Source: a virus | DNA: 23,322 nt | Virus record (IMG/VR): IMGVR_UViG_3300025889_000980 | Span: 1-23,322 of that record | Reading direction: 5' to 3' (one strand) | Shown here: positions 3,223 through 19,421 of the stretch, one piece after another | Layout of the letters: each line of letters opens with the position of its first letter | Position numbering within the stretch: the first letter of the stretch is position 1 | Translations under genes and position numbers: made by a program | The notes under the pieces: model-generated | What the model saw: only the letters and a program-made list of their open reading frames with translations | Told to the model about the DNA's origin: nothing | Database searches by the model: none

Positions 3223-3474
3223 ATGTCAGGAAGAAATTATAAATGGTTGGAGAAAGATATGTTAACACCAAGACAATTAAAGTTATTTAAATATTTAGTA
3301 GCTTATAAAAAGAAGCATGAGATAATGCCTAAATTTGATGAGATAAGAGAGTACATGAATATTAAATCAAAGAGTGGTGTTTATCAAATGCTTGGGTACA
3401 TAGAGTGGAAGGGATATATTAAAAGACATCCTGCACACGCAAGAGCAATAGAAATATTAAAGGAGGTAGCATGA
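3223..3474 (+). CDS. LexA-type winged-helix DNA-binding protein without protease domain
   Basis: Residues 13-80 match the LexA N-terminal DNA-binding domain: LTPRQ at the start (LexA has LTxRQ), a first helix LKLFKYLVAYKKKHEIMP, the helix pair FDEIREYMNIKSKSGVYQML, then a wing (KGYIKRHPAHARAIEIL). LexA itself continues for about 120 more residues with a Ser/Lys self-cleaving domain; here the protein stops, so RecA-triggered self-cleavage is not expected. It may repress an early promoter, or act as an anti-repressor or dominant-negative version of host LexA (inference). ATG 3223 is 2 bases after the previous stop; an internal ATG at 3259 has a better site (GGAG 3249-3252) and matches the start of LexA, so it may be the real start. 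The dyad near the 4076-4104 promoter is a possible target. Confidence 0.75.
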   Translation: MSGRNYKWLEKDMLTPRQLKLFKYLVAYKKKHEIMPKFDEIREYMNIKSKSGVYQMLGYIEWKGYIKRHPAHARAIEILKEVA

Positions 3475-3478
3475 GTAA
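3460..3478 (+). repeat. 19-bp direct repeat at the start of the homing endonuclease cassette
   Basis: Positions 3460-3478 match 3828-3846 at 18 of 19 bases (G/A difference at 3464 versus 3832). The unit holds the ribosome binding site, the last codons of one gene (ending Val-Ala), and ATGAGTAA, the start of the next gene. The two copies sit exactly at the two ends of the homing endonuclease gene. Confidence 0.8.
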
Positions 3479-3842
3479 GTCTGAACTTTATCAAATAGAA
3501 AAAGATGCTTTTTTAGCAGGTCTATTTGATGCTGATGGTTCTGTTTCTATTTATCAAAGCTTAAAGAAAAAATCTAATAAGGTTTATACTGTTCATGCTT
3601 GTGAAATTTCTATGACAAATGAAGAAGTTATTAATTGGATTAAAGATACTGTTGGCTTTGGTAATATTTTTTATAGAGAAGCACATGAAAAATGGTTAGG
3701 TACTAAACCTCAATGGCGATGGAAAGTATCACACAAAAAAGCTTTAGAGTTTGCTAAAATTATATTACCTTATAGTATTATAAAAAAAGATAAGTTAAAT
3801 AAAATAATAAAACATTATGAAACAAAAAAGGAAGTAGCATGA
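3471..3842 (+). CDS. LAGLIDADG homing endonuclease, single motif (copy 2)
   Basis: Residues 15-23 read LAGLFDADG, a near-perfect LAGLIDADG helix with the catalytic Asp at 22. The rest (a beta-rich middle with GFGNIFYR and WRWKVSHK, then helical ILPY and a C-terminal helix) follows the single-motif fold, and 123 aa is typical for a dimerising member. Role by family: site-specific double-strand cutting that copies the gene into genomes lacking it. ATG 3471 is coupled to the LexA-like gene by ATGA, with AGGAGG at 3461-3466. The gene is bounded by 19-bp imperfect direct repeats. Gene 2174-2545 is a likely distant paralogue; this copy keeps the canonical catalytic Asp. Confidence 0.88.
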   Translation: MSKSELYQIEKDAFLAGLFDADGSVSIYQSLKKKSNKVYTVHACEISMTNEEVINWIKDTVGFGNIFYREAHEKWLGTKPQWRWKVSHKKALEFAKIILPYSIIKKDKLNKIIKHYETKKEVA

Positions 3843-9437: not shown

Positions 9438-10347
9438 TACGATAGCAACAGACATCAAGCAATTGATTTCTGATATATCTACTGGTAAACCTGCCAACAT
9501 GACAGAGGAAAACTTAAATGTTTTTCTTAATAATATTAAAGAAGCTGTTCTAGCTTGGAATACTTCTCAAGTAAAAGCAGAAAAGTATGAAGGTAAACTT
9601 AGGATGTCTTCTATTGGTAAACCTGCAAGACAACTATGGTATGATAAACATAGTCCTAAAGATAGAAAGAATGAAGACACAGGATTAAATTTAAAATTTT
9701 TATATGGTCATATCATTGAACATTTAGTTTTATATTTAGCAGAGTTAGCAGGACATACTATCAAAGACCAACAAAGAAAAGTTGAAGTGTCAGGAGTATC
9801 AGGACACATAGACAGTATCATTGATGGTGAAGTATGTGATGTTAAATCAGCATCACCTTTTAGTTTTAAAAAATTTCAATCAGGTGAGATAGTTGGTGAT
9901 GACCCTTTTGGTTATCATGCACAATTAGCAGCATATGAAGAAGGTTGTGATACAAAAGCAGGTGGCTTTCTTGTTGTTGATAAATCTTCTGGTGATATTT
10001 GTTTTTACAAACCAGATGATATGGCTAAACCAAATGTTAAATCTTTAATTAAAAATTTAAATACTGCTTTAGAACAAGACACTCCTCCAGAAAAATGTTA
10101 TGAATATAAAACAGAAAAGAATGGTAACAAAACTTTAGCTACTGGTTGTATGTTTTGTCCACACAAATGGGAATGTCATTCTGATGCTAATGGTGGTAAA
10201 GGTTTAAGAGTATTTAAATATTCTAATAAGAATGTTATGTTAGCTGAAGTTATTAAAGAACCTAATGTAGATGAAATTACAAATCAATATAAGGAACAAT
10301 TAGAAAACTATGGAAAAAGAACTGATACACAAGCACCTTCTAATTAG
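9394..10347 (+). CDS. RecB/Cas4-like PD-(D/E)XK exonuclease with a cysteine cluster
   Basis: 317 aa. The nuclease core shows GHIIEH (residues 105-110), then His138 and Asp140 (SGHIDSI), Asp149-x-Lys151 (CDVKSAS), and a QxxxY motif Gln177/Tyr181 (HAQLAAYEEG). This is the order of the RecB/AddB/Cas4 nuclease family. The C-terminus has Cys252-x2-Cys255-x5-Cys261 plus Cys235; the x2-x5 spacing is that of the AddB/Cas4 iron-sulfur cluster, although the fourth cysteine there usually comes before the nuclease core. Directly after polA it probably does the job of T7 gp6: degrading host DNA, removing primers and supporting recombination. ATG 9394 lies inside polA (44-base overlap), 10 bases after AAGG. 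The frame then runs into speD with a 38-base overlap. Confidence 0.85.
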   Translation: MANIKSETTGQKHISTIATDIKQLISDISTGKPANMTEENLNVFLNNIKEAVLAWNTSQVKAEKYEGKLRMSSIGKPARQLWYDKHSPKDRKNEDTGLNLKFLYGHIIEHLVLYLAELAGHTIKDQQRKVEVSGVSGHIDSIIDGEVCDVKSASPFSFKKFQSGEIVGDDPFGYHAQLAAYEEGCDTKAGGFLVVDKSSGDICFYKPDDMAKPNVKSLIKNLNTALEQDTPPEKCYEYKTEKNGNKTLATGCMFCPHKWECHSDANGGKGLRVFKYSNKNVMLAEVIKEPNVDEITNQYKEQLENYGKRTDTQAPSN

Positions 10348-10684
10348 AGCAGAGGTAAAGAAACCTTTAGCTACTGAAGAAGATACAGTTGCTTGGATGA
10401 AAAAATTAATTAATAAAATAGATATGAATATATTAGCAGGACCTTATTCATCTAGAGTTACTAAGAAAGGTAATAAAGGATTAAGTGGTGTTGCTATTAT
10501 AGATACTTCACACATTGGTATTCATACATGGGATGAACAACAACCTGCATTAATACAGTTAGATGTTTATTCTTGTAAAGAATTTAAGAAGACAGATGTA
10601 CTAGAATGTTTAGAAATATTTGAACCTATCATAGTAGAGTATAAATATTTTGATAGAGATACTAATTTTAAGGAATTAAAATAA
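10310..10684 (+). CDS. speD: S-adenosylmethionine decarboxylase family proenzyme (pyruvoyl enzyme)
   Basis: 124 aa, the usual length of the small bacterial class. The core is DTSHIGIHTWDE then QLDVYSC: Ser67 is the predicted cleavage residue that becomes the pyruvoyl group, His72 the processing residue and Cys89 the catalytic acid, matching Ser63, His68 and Cys83 of the Thermotoga enzyme with two residues inserted before the Cys. The family self-cleaves and decarboxylates S-adenosylmethionine to supply aminopropyl groups for spermidine. Odd points: the residue before the cleaved Ser is Thr66, where the family usually has Glu, and there is no spermidine synthase in the window. Some homologues are known to have become ornithine or arginine decarboxylases, so the substrate is open. 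It overlaps the exonuclease gene by 38 bases; AAGGA at 10291-10295 is the likely binding site. Confidence 0.88.
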   Translation: MEKELIHKHLLIRAEVKKPLATEEDTVAWMKKLINKIDMNILAGPYSSRVTKKGNKGLSGVAIIDTSHIGIHTWDEQQPALIQLDVYSCKEFKKTDVLECLEIFEPIIVEYKYFDRDTNFKELK

Positions 10685-12452: not shown

Positions 12453-12667
12453 TTATTTGTTATTATTTTTTTTATTGTTAAACTTCCATCTATATTTTTT
12501 TCAAGTTCTGCTTTTACTTCTCCACACATAAATTTTTTATTATCCATATTCATATTTCTACTACCTTCTCTTTTCATTTTTAAACAAGTAGATAAAGTAT
12601 CTTGTATTCTATGTTCTACAAGTTCCCCATTAATAAACAAACATAAAGCAAATACTAATTTAATCAT
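12449..12667 (-). CDS. Small secreted Cys-containing protein, 72 aa
   Basis: A TTG start at 12673 extends the frame by two residues, but ATG 12667 overlaps the upstream stop exactly as TAATG, so I start there (MIKLVFALCLFING). The N-terminal hydrophobic stretch is a short signal peptide or anchor, followed by LVEHRIQDTLSTCLKMK and KKFMCGEVKAELE with two Cys. I remember similar proteins in marine phage genomes, always uncharacterised. A pair with the next gene, both probably exported. Confidence 0.65.
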   Translation of the reverse strand: MIKLVFALCLFINGELVEHRIQDTLSTCLKMKREGSRNMNMDNKKFMCGEVKAELEKNIDGSLTIKKIITNK

Positions 12668-13380
12668 TACCAAAATTTCATTTTCTTAGCAGCTTTTTTA
12701 CAAGCTTTACTAGTTGATTTAGCTGCATTAGATACAGGAGCAACTACATGATTTCTAATTGGATTCATTACTGGTCTCGTATCAACTGTTATACTTGGAC
12801 TAATAGATACACCAACTCCCAATGCTAATTTAACATCAGCACCTACAGTTAATTTACCATCGTCAACTGTTGCACCTCCTCCAACTTTTGCTCCTATTTG
12901 TGGACCAACAGAAACTGCAGCACCAAGCGATGCATTGTTTCTATCATTCCCAATAGTAGCTGAAGTTCCAACTTCTGCTTTAGCACCTGCAATAGCACCT
13001 GCTTCACCTTTAACACCATTCGTACCTACTTGTCCAGATACTCCAATGTCTGAATATGTTTTAGTTCCTGCATGAACTTCTGTATCTGCTGATACACCAC
13101 TACCAATATTAGTTGATGTACCTGCAGTAGCAGTTGCCCCTGCTTCTACTTTTGTACCTGCTTCAAATTTAGCATTACCATTTTTAGCTTCGGCACTTAC
13201 ACCTGCTTCAGCAACAACATGAGTTTCAGTTTTAGCTTCGCCTGTTGTACCATTTCCCAAACCTCTTTTAGAACTAGCTTCTGCACTAGCACCTGCACTT
13301 ACTCCTGCAGACGCAGAGTTCTTATCACTTGTTGCACCTTTAGTTACTTCTGTTTCTGTTGATGCATTATTTTTTACCAT
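12667..13380 (-). CDS. Gly/Ala/Ser/Thr-rich repetitive protein, 237 aa
   Basis: From residue 20 to 200 the protein is built of short irregular repeats of small residues alternating with Val, Glu, Lys and Thr (VSAEAKNG, FEAGTKVEAGATATAG, VSADTEVHAGTK), a pattern typical of beta-solenoid or fibre-like folds, though a disordered state is also possible. The last 20 residues change to a basic helix (SKACKKAAKKMKF) ending in Trp. There is no signal peptide. ATG 13380 overlaps the previous stop (TAATG), with GGAGAT upstream. It sits between the membrane protein cluster and two secreted proteins. It could be a fibre-like appendage, adhesin or decoration protein. Function unknown. Confidence 0.7.
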   Translation of the reverse strand: MVKNNASTETEVTKGATSDKNSASAGVSAGASAEASSKRGLGNGTTGEAKTETHVVAEAGVSAEAKNGNAKFEAGTKVEAGATATAGTSTNIGSGVSADTEVHAGTKTYSDIGVSGQVGTNGVKGEAGAIAGAKAEVGTSATIGNDRNNASLGAAVSVGPQIGAKVGGGATVDDGKLTVGADVKLALGVGVSISPSITVDTRPVMNPIRNHVVAPVSNAAKSTSKACKKAAKKMKFW

Positions 13381-14597: not shown

Positions 14598-17500
14598 TTA
14601 TTTATCTCCTTTTATTTTTTTAATAATTACTCCTGATGTTCCTATCTTATATTTACTAGGAATTTTTTCTACTTTAAATTTATCACCTAAAATACTTTTA
14701 ATATATTCTTCTAATTCTTTTTGACTATATCCTTTTTGAAAAGTCTTCTTATCTCCCTTACCAAATATCCACCCATCATTAAATGGTGTAGCATTCTTAG
14801 AAGCTTGGGCTGCTTTAGTAACTTCATTACCTCTTGTTGTAATAACAGCTATTCCTTTATCGCTTATTAATTGTGATATTTGTCTAACAACATTACTTCT
14901 TTCCATAGGGTCTTCAATTACATTCAATACATTAGCATTAACAACACCATCTTTAGAAGCAAATCCTTCTTTAAATATAACATCATCTGCTGTTTTATAA
15001 TCAGGTACTTTACCTTTTACTTTTATAATTTTTTCTACTGGAACAAAAGGTTCATGATTAGTTACTATTTTATTTGTAAATTCTTTTGAACCCAAACCTA
15101 AACCAGAACCAAAATCATGTACAGTTTTAACATTAGCATCATCAAATATTTTATTAACTTTTTTATATGTACCTACTGTAGTTGATATTGCTGTATCACC
15201 TCTTTTAACTCCATATTTACTAATTGCTTTTGTTGCTAATTTTGCAGCTAATCCACCTATATTAAATTTTTGTTTTGATAAACTTTTAATTGCGTTAGCT
15301 GTATTATTCATTCTTTCTATAATACCTCTTCTATCTAATGCAACAGCATTATCATATTCTTCATTTCTTAAAAATTCTTTTGCAGCTTTTTCATATTCAC
15401 CTGCATTAATTAAATCTAAAGTTAAAGGACTTCCTGATAAAGAACCTCTAAACCATGAAGATACTAAATTTTGTCTAACATCTAATGGAAATTTATCAAA
15501 GTTTTTTATATTTTTTTTTACTTGAGGAAGTCTTTCATTAATATCTTCTACTAATTGAGCATTAGCCTCAGCTTCAGTAACTGAATCTTCTAATTTATTT
15601 TCATCTCTATAACTACCATACCCACTTGTAACTTTTTCTTCTCCTTTACCTTTATAATTTTTATATCTTTCTTCACCATCAACAATAATTTTTTCACCTA
15701 AACTTTCATAACCTTTTATAATAGGCATATAATCGGCAGCTTCAGGTTTTTTCTTAGGTAATATTATTTCTTTAACTGGTGCTTGTTTTTCACTCTTCTC
15801 AGAAACTAAATCAATTTCTTGTTCTTCATTTTGTTTTAATTCAGTATTTAAACCAGACATACCTACTGTTGCAATATCACCAGTAGATAATTTAAGTGGA
15901 GTTAATTTACGACCTTTGATAGGCATATCACCTCGAACAGTTTTTGCTCCCCATAATTTACTAATCCAATTTCTCCATTCAGGAAAAGGTGCTATGTCTT
16001 TACTAAATTTTTTTAATGCTTTATCAAAATCACCTAATAAAGTTGCTTGTACAATTTCACCTGCACCTCTAGCAATTTGAAAAGCAGGAGCAAACTGATA
16101 CCAAGGTTCTCTTGAACTTGGTCCAACAGTTTTATTAATAAATAAATCAGATAAATAACCTTGTTGTCCTGATAATCTAAATGCTTCAGCAAACCATCTT
16201 TCAGTATTAGGACCAAAGTCTGTTACTACTTCTCCATACTTAGCAAACTCTCTTAGTCCTTGGATACCACCATAAACTGGTATTGCTGCTAGTACTTTTA
16301 TTAAAGTTTTTGTATTACCATTTTCGATTCGTTGTAAAATTTTATTTGTTTGTGCAGATTTTGCCATAGCCCATGACATAAACTGACCCATTAATCTTGA
16401 CCAAGGATTTTGACTTTGTGTAAATAATAATCTGTTTGATATTTGAGGAACTAATGCATCTCTGTTTGATGTTGTAATACCTGCACTATTTAATGCTTTT
16501 TTAAATCTAACATTTTTTATAGCTTCTTCAATAGAATTTGTTTTAGCCATATCTAAAGCTGTTTGAGGTTTAATATTATATCTAGATAAATCTTGTACAA
16601 CTTTTAAACCTTTACCTTTATCTAATGATACTCCATTGCTTACCATTTTAGATAAAGTTTTAGATAACCCATAAGCATCACCAGCACCTACATTATAAGC
16701 AAATCTTCTAGCAAATCCAGTTAACCATTCTAATCCTAATCCTTTAAATGCATAATTGTTAACTTTTTGTGTAACAGTTTCACCCATCCAATTAGCATTG
16801 GTAACAACATTACTACCATCAATACCTAATGGTTTAATTAATCCTTGTCTAATTTCATTTGTTATAGCTAAGTTTAATTCTTTTGCTATTCCTGTTTCAC
16901 CTTTAACAGTAAATGCTGTGTTAATTCCTCTTTGTCCTACAATAGGTAATGCTTTAAACCATGAACTAAACTGTGCTGAGTTTTGAAAAGGTTGAACTAT
17001 ATCACCTAATGATGATATTGTTACTCTACCCAACATATTTAAGTTAGATAAAGTAGAAAGAATTGCAGCACTAGACCTCCATAGACCATCCACTTGTTGA
17101 CCATATCTATCAAAGTATGCATCAATAGTATCAGCAACAAGACTACCTTCTTTAGCTGCAGCTTGATTTGCTTTTTCTACACTTAAACCTGAGTTAACAT
17201 ATTTTTGTTTTATTTGTTCAAAGAAAGGTTTTAATAATTGTCCATTCTCTCCAAACTGTCTAGTAAAAGCTATAGACCTCATAGATTTATTAACTATGTT
17301 AGTTAATATATTAGCAGCATCATTTACTAAATAATTATTTTTTTCTAATACTTCTTCTACTAATTTATAAGGACCATTTAAACTTCTTTCTTGTGAAATA
17401 TGTTCACTAATAGGAGTGTAAACAAACTCTTTACCATATTTAGTTTTAGTAGCACCTGATATTTTTCTATTACCAGTAAATATTTCTGATAATATTTCTC

Positions 17501-19421
17501 TATTAAATACAGAGTCAGTATTATTTCTATGTCCTGCAAAATAAGTTTCAGCAGCTTTCTTAGGGTCTTTATATTTTAAACTTTTAAATATACCTTCTAA
17601 TACTTTTTGGAAAGCTTCAGGGTCTCTATTTATTTTTTCCCAGTTAAATACTCTAGGAAAATAATCTTGTATTTCTGTTTTAGAAAAGAACCCTGCATCA
17701 TTATAAACTTTTTTAAATCCATCTAAGTAATCTTTTATTCCTTTAGCTAATTCTTCTACTCTTGCAGGTGTATCTTTTGTTAACTGTTTTCCTCTAACAA
17801 TAGAAACTGCAGCAGCTTGTTCAGCTTCAGTATAATTACCTTTATTAATTAAATCATATGCTTTACGAGTCCATTCTCTAGTTAATCTATCAGCATTTGA
17901 TACAACAGATTTTTGAGAAACAGATGAATCAATTGTTTCTAATAATAATTTACCTACTTGTTCTGTTGCTCCACCATAAGCTTCTAATTTAGTAGAAGAT
18001 GTAGATGCTGTTAATGCTCTAATTTGTTGTAAAGTATATTTAGTAGCTTCACTATCTATAATACCTAATATTTTATTTTTATCACCTAATGTAAATTTTT
18101 TACTAGCTTGTATGTATTTTTGTGTAGCACCCATTACAGCACCAGCAGTAAACCAATTTAATAATTTAGTATCTTCATCACCAAATAAAACACCAGCAGT
18201 TAATCCTGTTGCTCCACCTACTAAAGGTTTGACTGCTACTGATGTTAAACTTCTAACAGCCCAGTCTACTGAACTTTCTGTTGCTTTTAATTTTTCTAAT
18301 ATTAAACCATCTCTCTTAGCAACTAACTCAGCATACTTTTTAATTTTAGGTTGTTGTGCTTTATATAATTCTGCTTTAGTTTTTTCTAATGCTTTAGTAG
18401 CATCGTTTAGTTGAGTTCTAATATTTATTATTTGTTTACCAAGTGATTCCTGTTTTAACATACCAGGAACATTTGGCTTAGGTTTTTTTCTACCTTTTAA
18501 ACTTCTAATTTTAATTAATAAATTTCTTTTATCTAATAAATTTTTTTCTAATGTTTTAAATTTAGAAACTTCTTTTGATATAGGTGCTACAAAATTTGCA
18601 TTAGACCATTCAATTAAATTTTTACTAGCTGATACAACTTCTTTATCATTTGTTACTGCTCTTAAATTTTTTAATTGAGGTACAGTAATATTTTCTTTCT
18701 TAGCGATTTTATTATCTATATATTCTACAACTTCATCTACTTGTTTTTGTGTAGCTTGTGGTGCATATTTTTTAAATATTTTAGAAACAACAGGAGTTAT
18801 CGGACCTAGGGCTGCACCAAATGTACTTGCTAATCCTACTTTACCATAATCAATTTCACCTTTAGTAGCTAAATCTCTTAAAGCTACATCAGCACCAATA
18901 GTTAAACCACCCATTAAAGATGCCATTTTATAACTCTTCATAGCAGCTCTTCCCCAAGGAGTAGCATATGCTAATATATAACCAGGGTCAAGAATAAGAG
19001 TTGCTATCTCTCCTGCTTTAACAATACCATCATCATCATATTTACCTGAAGCAAATTTCCAATGTTCTTTTTCAATATCTTTTTGTCTTAATGCTTCATT
19101 TTCTAAAATATAATCTTTAAAAGATTTATCTTCATCAAATATATCTTGAACTTTAGCTTTACCTATACGATATATGTTACCAAGTATTTGTGTATTTTTA
19201 TCAAAAGCATATTCTAATTTTTCTAAATTAGATACTTTTATTTCTTCTCCTTGAGAAAAATCAATACCTTCAGTAATAGTATCTTCAACTACAGCTTCAG
19301 CTTTAACTGGCTCTGCTTGTGAAAAATCTAATTCACTTGTTACTTCTTCAGGTTGTGTGTTGGAAAGTTCTTCTGTATTGAGAGGAGTTGCCTGTTCAAA
19401 ACTTAGAGTTTCACTTGACAT
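14598..19421 (-). CDS. Giant internal virion protein with lysozyme-like and methyltransferase-like domains
   Basis: 1607 aa, ATG 19421 after AGGAGA. The N-terminus has three related short motifs (SFEQA 7-11, DFSQA 32-36, DFSQG 54-58). Residues about 100-1200 are mostly helical, with Gly/Ala-rich hydrophobic parts (for example MASLMGGLTIGADVALRDL), as in large ejected core proteins such as T7 gp16. Residues about 1230-1380 resemble phage GH24 lysozyme: Glu1239 in GYES and Thr1265 in VTSGYGSY, but the usual Asp between them is not evident, so activity is uncertain. Residues about 1385-1607 look like a class I methyltransferase: HDFGSGLGLGSKE with Asp1436 as the SAM-binding loop, then VLNVIEDPMERSNVV and GIAVITTRG. 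Likely ejected with the DNA to cross the cell wall. The methyltransferase target is unknown. Neighbours are other virion genes. Confidence 0.85.
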   Translation of the reverse strand: MSSETLSFEQATPLNTEELSNTQPEEVTSELDFSQAEPVKAEAVVEDTITEGIDFSQGEEIKVSNLEKLEYAFDKNTQILGNIYRIGKAKVQDIFDEDKSFKDYILENEALRQKDIEKEHWKFASGKYDDDGIVKAGEIATLILDPGYILAYATPWGRAAMKSYKMASLMGGLTIGADVALRDLATKGEIDYGKVGLASTFGAALGPITPVVSKIFKKYAPQATQKQVDEVVEYIDNKIAKKENITVPQLKNLRAVTNDKEVVSASKNLIEWSNANFVAPISKEVSKFKTLEKNLLDKRNLLIKIRSLKGRKKPKPNVPGMLKQESLGKQIINIRTQLNDATKALEKTKAELYKAQQPKIKKYAELVAKRDGLILEKLKATESSVDWAVRSLTSVAVKPLVGGATGLTAGVLFGDEDTKLLNWFTAGAVMGATQKYIQASKKFTLGDKNKILGIIDSEATKYTLQQIRALTASTSSTKLEAYGGATEQVGKLLLETIDSSVSQKSVVSNADRLTREWTRKAYDLINKGNYTEAEQAAAVSIVRGKQLTKDTPARVEELAKGIKDYLDGFKKVYNDAGFFSKTEIQDYFPRVFNWEKINRDPEAFQKVLEGIFKSLKYKDPKKAAETYFAGHRNNTDSVFNREILSEIFTGNRKISGATKTKYGKEFVYTPISEHISQERSLNGPYKLVEEVLEKNNYLVNDAANILTNIVNKSMRSIAFTRQFGENGQLLKPFFEQIKQKYVNSGLSVEKANQAAAKEGSLVADTIDAYFDRYGQQVDGLWRSSAAILSTLSNLNMLGRVTISSLGDIVQPFQNSAQFSSWFKALPIVGQRGINTAFTVKGETGIAKELNLAITNEIRQGLIKPLGIDGSNVVTNANWMGETVTQKVNNYAFKGLGLEWLTGFARRFAYNVGAGDAYGLSKTLSKMVSNGVSLDKGKGLKVVQDLSRYNIKPQTALDMAKTNSIEEAIKNVRFKKALNSAGITTSNRDALVPQISNRLLFTQSQNPWSRLMGQFMSWAMAKSAQTNKILQRIENGNTKTLIKVLAAIPVYGGIQGLREFAKYGEVVTDFGPNTERWFAEAFRLSGQQGYLSDLFINKTVGPSSREPWYQFAPAFQIARGAGEIVQATLLGDFDKALKKFSKDIAPFPEWRNWISKLWGAKTVRGDMPIKGRKLTPLKLSTGDIATVGMSGLNTELKQNEEQEIDLVSEKSEKQAPVKEIILPKKKPEAADYMPIIKGYESLGEKIIVDGEERYKNYKGKGEEKVTSGYGSYRDENKLEDSVTEAEANAQLVEDINERLPQVKKNIKNFDKFPLDVRQNLVSSWFRGSLSGSPLTLDLINAGEYEKAAKEFLRNEEYDNAVALDRRGIIERMNNTANAIKSLSKQKFNIGGLAAKLATKAISKYGVKRGDTAISTTVGTYKKVNKIFDDANVKTVHDFGSGLGLGSKEFTNKIVTNHEPFVPVEKIIKVKGKVPDYKTADDVIFKEGFASKDGVVNANVLNVIEDPMERSNVVRQISQLISDKGIAVITTRGNEVTKAAQASKNATPFNDGWIFGKGDKKTFQKGYSQKELEEYIKSILGDKFKVEKIPSKYKIGTSGVIIKKIKGDK

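Follow-up and report, generated by a model that had tools for sequence, protein, structure and literature searches.

The late gene analysed here, which lies in a 23,322-base virus record of G+C 0.30 (the window, meaning this whole stretch of DNA), encodes a 1607-aa protein that combines a long core, a peptidoglycan hydrolase domain and a C-terminal domain that, judged from its modelled fold and its relatives, is a class I SAM-dependent methyltransferase. Because the gene closes the virion operon, the product is large and carries a fused hydrolase, and one relative is of the polyvalent type, we reasoned that the product could be a T7 gp16-like ejection protein, whose hydrolase would open the peptidoglycan and which would deliver an active methyltransferase to the host; we give this reading a probability of roughly 0.55. 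That lysozyme-like and methyltransferase-like domains share one ORF, as the original prediction from the sequence had proposed, was borne out by Pfam, relatives, an AlphaFold model and Foldseek. The same prediction called the combination unusual; it is real and recurs in related and unrelated phages, but it is normal for this phage group, being carried by HTVC103P, by HTVC104P and by some 30 loci that have this core (loci are designated by L and a number).

A late gene of an HTVC103P-type pelagiphage relative

The DNA polymerase and primase-helicase of HTVC104P are 84% and 82% identical to their window counterparts, and the gene order is the same. These close replication genes and the kept gene order indicate that the source phage is a relative of the HTVC103P-type pelagiphages, a kind infecting SAR11 bacteria and reported to have a common HMO-2011-type morphogenesis module (PMC8528129). 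The 1607-aa gene closes the late virion operon on its downstream side, an arrangement also seen in HTVC104P and HTVC115P (in HTVC115P terminase, portal and capsid come first, then structural genes, then the core gene), and the plus strand of 14598-19421 contains no long frame. Its full-length homologues are HTVC103P gp52 and HTVC104P gp54 (the latter 43% identical across a best segment of 1134 aa), both annotated 'hypothetical protein', and PHROG 6958 ('virion structural protein') matches core residues 689-911 with E=8e-6. Gene position and relatives thus support a virion protein, and it is plausible that the protein is present in the virion and injected. Literature searches returned no pelagiphage or HMO-2011-type virion proteomics data set covering it, and no paper that links ejection proteins with both lysozyme and methyltransferase domains. 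The product of the upstream 542-aa gene shows only 30% identity over 198 aa to its HTVC103P counterpart and had no match in family profile scans.

Table 1. Features of the late region in window coordinates; residue numbers refer to the 1607-aa protein.
Feature	Residues	Position	Strand	Basis or remark
Late gene: core, peptidoglycan hydrolase, methyltransferase (1607 aa)	1-1607	14598..19421	-	ATG start
Core, putative ejection/internal virion part	1-1220	15762..19421	-	Helical model, PHROG match, operon position
Exchangeable slot with Phage_lysozyme domain inside	1221-1385	15267..15761	-	PF00959 match; replaced elsewhere
Stretch not common with L009		15276..15742	-	Homology stops at 15743 and resumes at 15275 (blastn); edges of swapped hydrolase cassette
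Class I SAM-dependent methyltransferase domain (predicted)	1386-1607	14601..15266	-	Profiles, AF2, Foldseek
Motif I HDFGSGLGLGSKE, SAM-binding loop after strand 1	1435-1447	15081..15119	-	DxGxG invariant
Motif II HEPF, acidic residue ending strand 2	1456-1459	15045..15056	-	E and P invariant (61 relatives)
Motif IV region NANVLNVIEDP	1495-1505	14907..14939	-	L and N invariant; matches TIGR04096 NLGFVINVIEDP
TFQKGYSQKEL	1560-1570	14712..14744	-	Signature common with TIGR04096 (TFQKYF.QAEL); Q-K-G and E-L invariant
Upstream late gene, 542 aa		19431..21059	-	Fast-evolving; position of second internal virion protein
Small gene, 143 aa		14165..14596	-	Hydrophobic stretches; downstream of the 1607-aa gene

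The protein resembles T7 gp16 (internal virion protein D) in its size, its place at the end of the internal-protein block, its mostly helical prediction and the presence of a peptidoglycan hydrolase domain within a large late protein (PF00959, above the cut-off). By contrast, the hydrolase lies near the C terminus in the window protein and at the N terminus in gp16, and the methyltransferase is extra. Homology of the core to gp16 was not detected by hhalign (probability 0.3%) or significantly by hmmsearch. However, HTVC019P gp37, which is annotated as internal virion protein D, likewise fails the T7 gp16 profile, indicating that this profile test is too weak to exclude kinship. The AF2 model of the core is mostly alpha-helical with a pLDDT of only 52.9, too poor for a fold comparison with gp16, and gave no meaningful Foldseek matches.

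The C-terminal domain has the predicted fold of a class I methyltransferase

Evidence from the single sequence was weak (PF13489, Methyltransf_23, E=0.01; a partial TIGR04096 match, E=6e-10), and the methyltransferase assignment became unambiguous once relatives were included, with PF13489 matching 48 of 61 relatives (best E=2.7e-9) and the TIGR04096 profile matching 55. Among PDB sequences, phmmer found chance matches only for the domain (malate dehydrogenase, E about 0.4), so a structure search was needed. The AlphaFold2 model of the domain (pLDDT 90.4, pTM 0.87) produced 621 PDB matches at E<=1e-3 in Foldseek; the top 50 were all class I methyltransferases, and the best were small-molecule, peptide and tRNA methyltransferases. 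The order of strands and helices in the model, these PDB matches and the invariant DxGxG all fit a class I enzyme.

The motifs cited in the original prediction are all present: GYES at 1237-1240 (quoted at about 1239), VTSGYGSY at 1264-1271, HDFGSGLGLGSKE exactly at the residues predicted for it, and VLNVIEDP inside the motif IV region. A fold lacking a SAM pocket, which that prediction named as a refuting outcome, was not what emerged: the AlphaFold model has a class I fold, and the SAM-site residues are conserved in the alignment of 61 relatives. In domain numbering, strands 1 and 2 of the model span residues 48-52 and 67-71; D51, G53 and G55 of DxGxG, after strand 1, and E72, after strand 2, are invariant in the 61 relatives and lie where this fold binds SAM. 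Further invariant residues outside the SAM motifs (T25, T30, Y34, K36, N115, R145 and QKG 177-179) suggest a candidate substrate pocket. Between lineages, dN/dS (NG86) was 0.09-0.66 for the methyltransferase, most values lying at 0.2-0.46, and 0.74-0.84 for divergent cores. These values favour selection on a functional methyltransferase domain but are only rough, since the cores compared are far diverged and recombination has blended their histories.

Hydrolase and methyltransferase behave as an exchanged C-terminal cassette

Within the slot, PF00959 (Phage_lysozyme, GH24) matches residues 1253-1356 with 31.6 bits against a Pfam gathering cut-off of 22.3 (E=2.3e-7). In the Glu-Asp-Thr triad of lysozymes, the Glu (in GYES) and the Thr (in VTSGYG) are plausibly placed, and visual inspection suggests that the middle position may hold Asn in place of Asp; phmmer aligned no lysozyme of solved structure with the region. 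Swapping of the hydrolase is known in the T7 gp16 class (PMC8954989), and alignments with relatives revealed it here. By blastn (coordinates converted from the reverse complement), the window and L009 have cores that are 99.6% identical over 4380 bases and methyltransferases that are 93.9% identical, with a glucosaminidase (PF01832) instead of the lysozyme in the L009 slot. L007 represents the converse of L009: its core is 42% identical at the protein level and its methyltransferase 98%, and a tract of 87.5% nucleotide identity spans the hydrolase, the methyltransferase and the downstream 143-aa gene. The product of this small gene is 96% identical to its HTVC104P counterpart, compared with 43% for the 1607-aa protein, and the gene was probably co-transferred with the cassette.

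In further relatives the slot contains a different lysozyme or, in L016, a tail lysozyme (PF18013), and in some no hydrolase was recognised; the order of the domains also varies. HTVC103P gp52 and HTVC104P gp54 have the same core, a lysozyme domain and a methyltransferase about 61% identical to that of the window, arranged as core, methyltransferase, lysozyme, whereas the window protein runs core, lysozyme, methyltransferase; the methyltransferase also precedes the hydrolase in L020, L043 and L045. HTVC115P keeps the core and has no methyltransferase, indicating that the methyltransferase is inessential to ejection. Although a metagenomic chimera could explain one case, it can hardly explain the set of swaps, because the set includes isolates. 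Taken together, these comparisons show that the hydrolase and methyltransferase form a C-terminal cassette whose parts have been exchanged between phages, as read from the sequences by recombination.

In-frame TAA codons were seen at some junctions, directly before the methyltransferase in L009 (4989-4991) and L014 (1070-1072), and between the core and the hydrolase region in L005 (590-592). They could reflect gene splitting, readthrough or assembly error, and those of L009 and L014 imply that the methyltransferase may be a separate protein in some phages.

Relatives in virion modules of unrelated phages

Sought in other phages, as the original prediction had advised, the domain recurs in virion-module genes of unrelated lineages. 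Of 414 IMG/VR stretches that fitted the search patterns, 313 encode a relative; a scan of genome contigs found only four. The fetched loci comprised 32 with the pelagiphage core, 33 with other or fragmentary larger frames and 20 with complete stand-alone frames (<=270 residues), frames being read stop to stop so that some exceed the true genes. Roseobacter phage CRP-3 gp36, encoded close to the portal gene, joins the methyltransferase to a cell-wall hydrolase (PF07486). In LS06-2018-MD07 it shares a frame of 3120 residues with ART-PolyVal and DUF7178, and the operon also encodes a protein annotated as internal virion protein; in mycobacteriophage Myrna, gp97 carries it after a head-maturation-protease domain, shortly before the capsid gene; and L074-type contigs have a stand-alone copy between terminase and portal. 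The nameable neighbours in all four lineages are head or other virion genes, and the phages with the domain include those of SAR11, Roseobacter, Microcystis and Mycobacterium. DUF7178 shares giant proteins with the methyltransferase in two different phages, CRP-3 (gp36, L025) and LS06-2018-MD07 (L028).

Relation to the Dnd-associated family TIGR04096

By hhalign, the domain shows homology (probability 98.2%, E=2.9e-14, 140 columns) to the methyltransferase of TIGR04096 (dnd_rel_methyl, DNA phosphorothioation-associated putative methyltransferase), and the two have in common the motifs KTAI, DYGCG/DFGSG, NVIEDP-ER and TFQK-EL-YI. Since its score of 38.4 bits (positions 72-152 of 478) is far below the curated cut-off of 150, the phage domain is a relative of this family and not a member. 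TIGR04096 proteins differ from it in their N- and C-terminal regions, and some are located in dnd loci; on a Pseudoalteromonas megaplasmid, a TIGR04096 gene immediately precedes dndB and dndC. Among the window ORFs scanned, which are part of the total, none resembled a dnd gene, and the neighbours of the 1607-aa gene are virion genes; the record may be a fragment. Our literature search found no report on the function of TIGR04096 proteins, and the phage family may help explain what Dnd-associated methyltransferases do. PADLOC gave no match for the window domain; in two relatives it reported similarity to mad2, which is confined to part of the methyltransferase fold.

Proposed role and alternatives

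Polyvalent proteins (PMC5512222) are likewise large, multidomain late proteins with a lysozyme domain and a predicted effector enzyme, and the window protein has two effector-type domains, lysozyme and methyltransferase. Pfam identified none of the polyvalent-specific domains (LPD, ART-PolyVal, MPTase) in it, and ART-PolyVal is present in its relative LS06-2018-MD07. The available passages of Iyer et al. 2017 (PMC5512222) describe methyltransferases that are adenine methylases of the EcoKI/TaqI kind, each fused to a helicase. By contrast, that of the window is from a different class I clade and lacks a helicase; those passages contain no mention of this clade.

We infer the protein's virion presence, ejection, catalytic activity and target as follows. 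Encoded last among the very large proteins of the virion operon, it would be packaged in the head and leave along with the DNA; its hydrolase domain would open the peptidoglycan, and the C-terminal methyltransferase would reach the host as infection starts. There it would probably methylate one conserved substrate, which could be RNA, a protein, a metabolite or DNA at a position other than an amino base, and this methylation might support takeover or counter host defence. That the hydrolase is swapped while the enzyme is kept in related phages suggests a delivered tool, and the spread of the domain across SAR11, Roseobacter, Microcystis and Mycobacterium phages makes a conserved substrate likely. 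We propose only tentatively, and with less assurance than the ejection-protein reading itself, that the widespread TIGR04096-related phage clade as a whole is an exchangeable ejected effector with non-amino-base chemistry, acting on a substrate that is conserved across SAR11, Roseobacter, Microcystis and Mycobacterium. In the portions of the literature examined, this methyltransferase clade has not previously been described in an ejected-protein role. If ejected and active, a defined enzyme could modify a conserved host component within the first minutes of infection. Testable isolates exist: HTVC103P and HTVC104P grow on HTCC7211, and HTVC115P, with the core and no domain, provides a built-in comparison.

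Alternatively, the methyltransferase could be encoded in the virion operon to serve assembly rather than delivery. It would then act at a late stage, either inside the cell that makes the phage or on the virion itself (capsid, portal, packaging machinery or the DNA being packaged). Stand-alone copies between terminase and portal, the Myrna copy fused to a head-maturation-protease domain, and the stop codons that set the domain apart in L009 and L014 agree with such a late action. However, its joining to several hydrolase families in both domain orders fits entry better than assembly, and the ART-PolyVal fusion of LS06-2018-MD07 is a hallmark of presumed injected proteins. We regard late action as rather improbable.

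Protection of incoming DNA, offered in the original prediction as an example of what the enzyme might do, is at best weakly supported. P1 DarB, which is packaged, co-ejected and contains a methylase domain (PMC5512222, PMC12810830), is a precedent for an ejected domain that methylates incoming phage DNA and shields it from restriction; packaging and ejection are what we infer for the window protein. The closest cellular relatives are TIGR04096 proteins, one of them encoded next to dnd genes as noted above, and the domain is basic (39 K+R versus 25 D+E). However, DarB is at once an adenine methylase of the NPP(Y/F) type and an SF2 helicase, and the window protein has neither part: family profile scans of the 1607 residues found no helicase family, and NANVLNVIEDP replaces the NPP(Y/F) or, more generally, [DNS]PP[FYW] motif of amino-DNA methylases, which makes amino-base DNA methylation unlikely. 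The best PDB matches, to enzymes for small molecules, peptides and tRNA, also point elsewhere, and according to the available passages of PMC9516812 the eight Pelagibacterales MAGs surveyed have no restriction-modification or CRISPR genes. Finally, GATC is already missing in phages with or without the domain. It occurs 0 times in the window against about 53-57 expected, and 0 or 1 times in every HTVC103P-type locus checked (L003-L048, HTVC103P, HTVC104P, HTVC115P). HTVC019P (L110) has 0 against 77 expected, and HTVC010P 131 against 82. GATC was thus ruled out as the methylation target, since almost no sites exist in the window and its close relatives, domain-less HTVC115P included. The available passages of PMC9516812 report GANTC depletion for some pelagiphages and do not mention GATC. 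On this evidence, a DarB-like shielding function appears unlikely.

A methyltransferase that has lost catalysis and is retained for a structural or binding role would accord with HTVC115P managing without the domain and with the lack of reported activity for any clade member in the literature examined, but it is highly improbable given that 61 sequences show no change in DxGxG, in the acidic residue of motif II or in other residues likely to line the pocket, and that the relatives come from phages of very different hosts.

Other observations

A 53% identical homologue of HTVC104P gp42, annotated as S-adenosylmethionine decarboxylase, is encoded at window positions 10310-10684 (+), and the gene is also found in HTVC115P, which has no methyltransferase. 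HTVC115P gp46 (L024 4391-4840), annotated 'toxin-activating lysine-acyltransferase', is among the late genes of that phage. A 237-aa protein with alanine/glycine/valine-rich repeats, a basic C terminus and no family match is encoded at 12667-13380 (-). Two small ORFs at 2174-2545 and 3471-3842 (+) contain, by eye, the LAGLIDADG-like stretches IDAEGHIEF and FDADGSVSI, and their products are possibly homing endonucleases.
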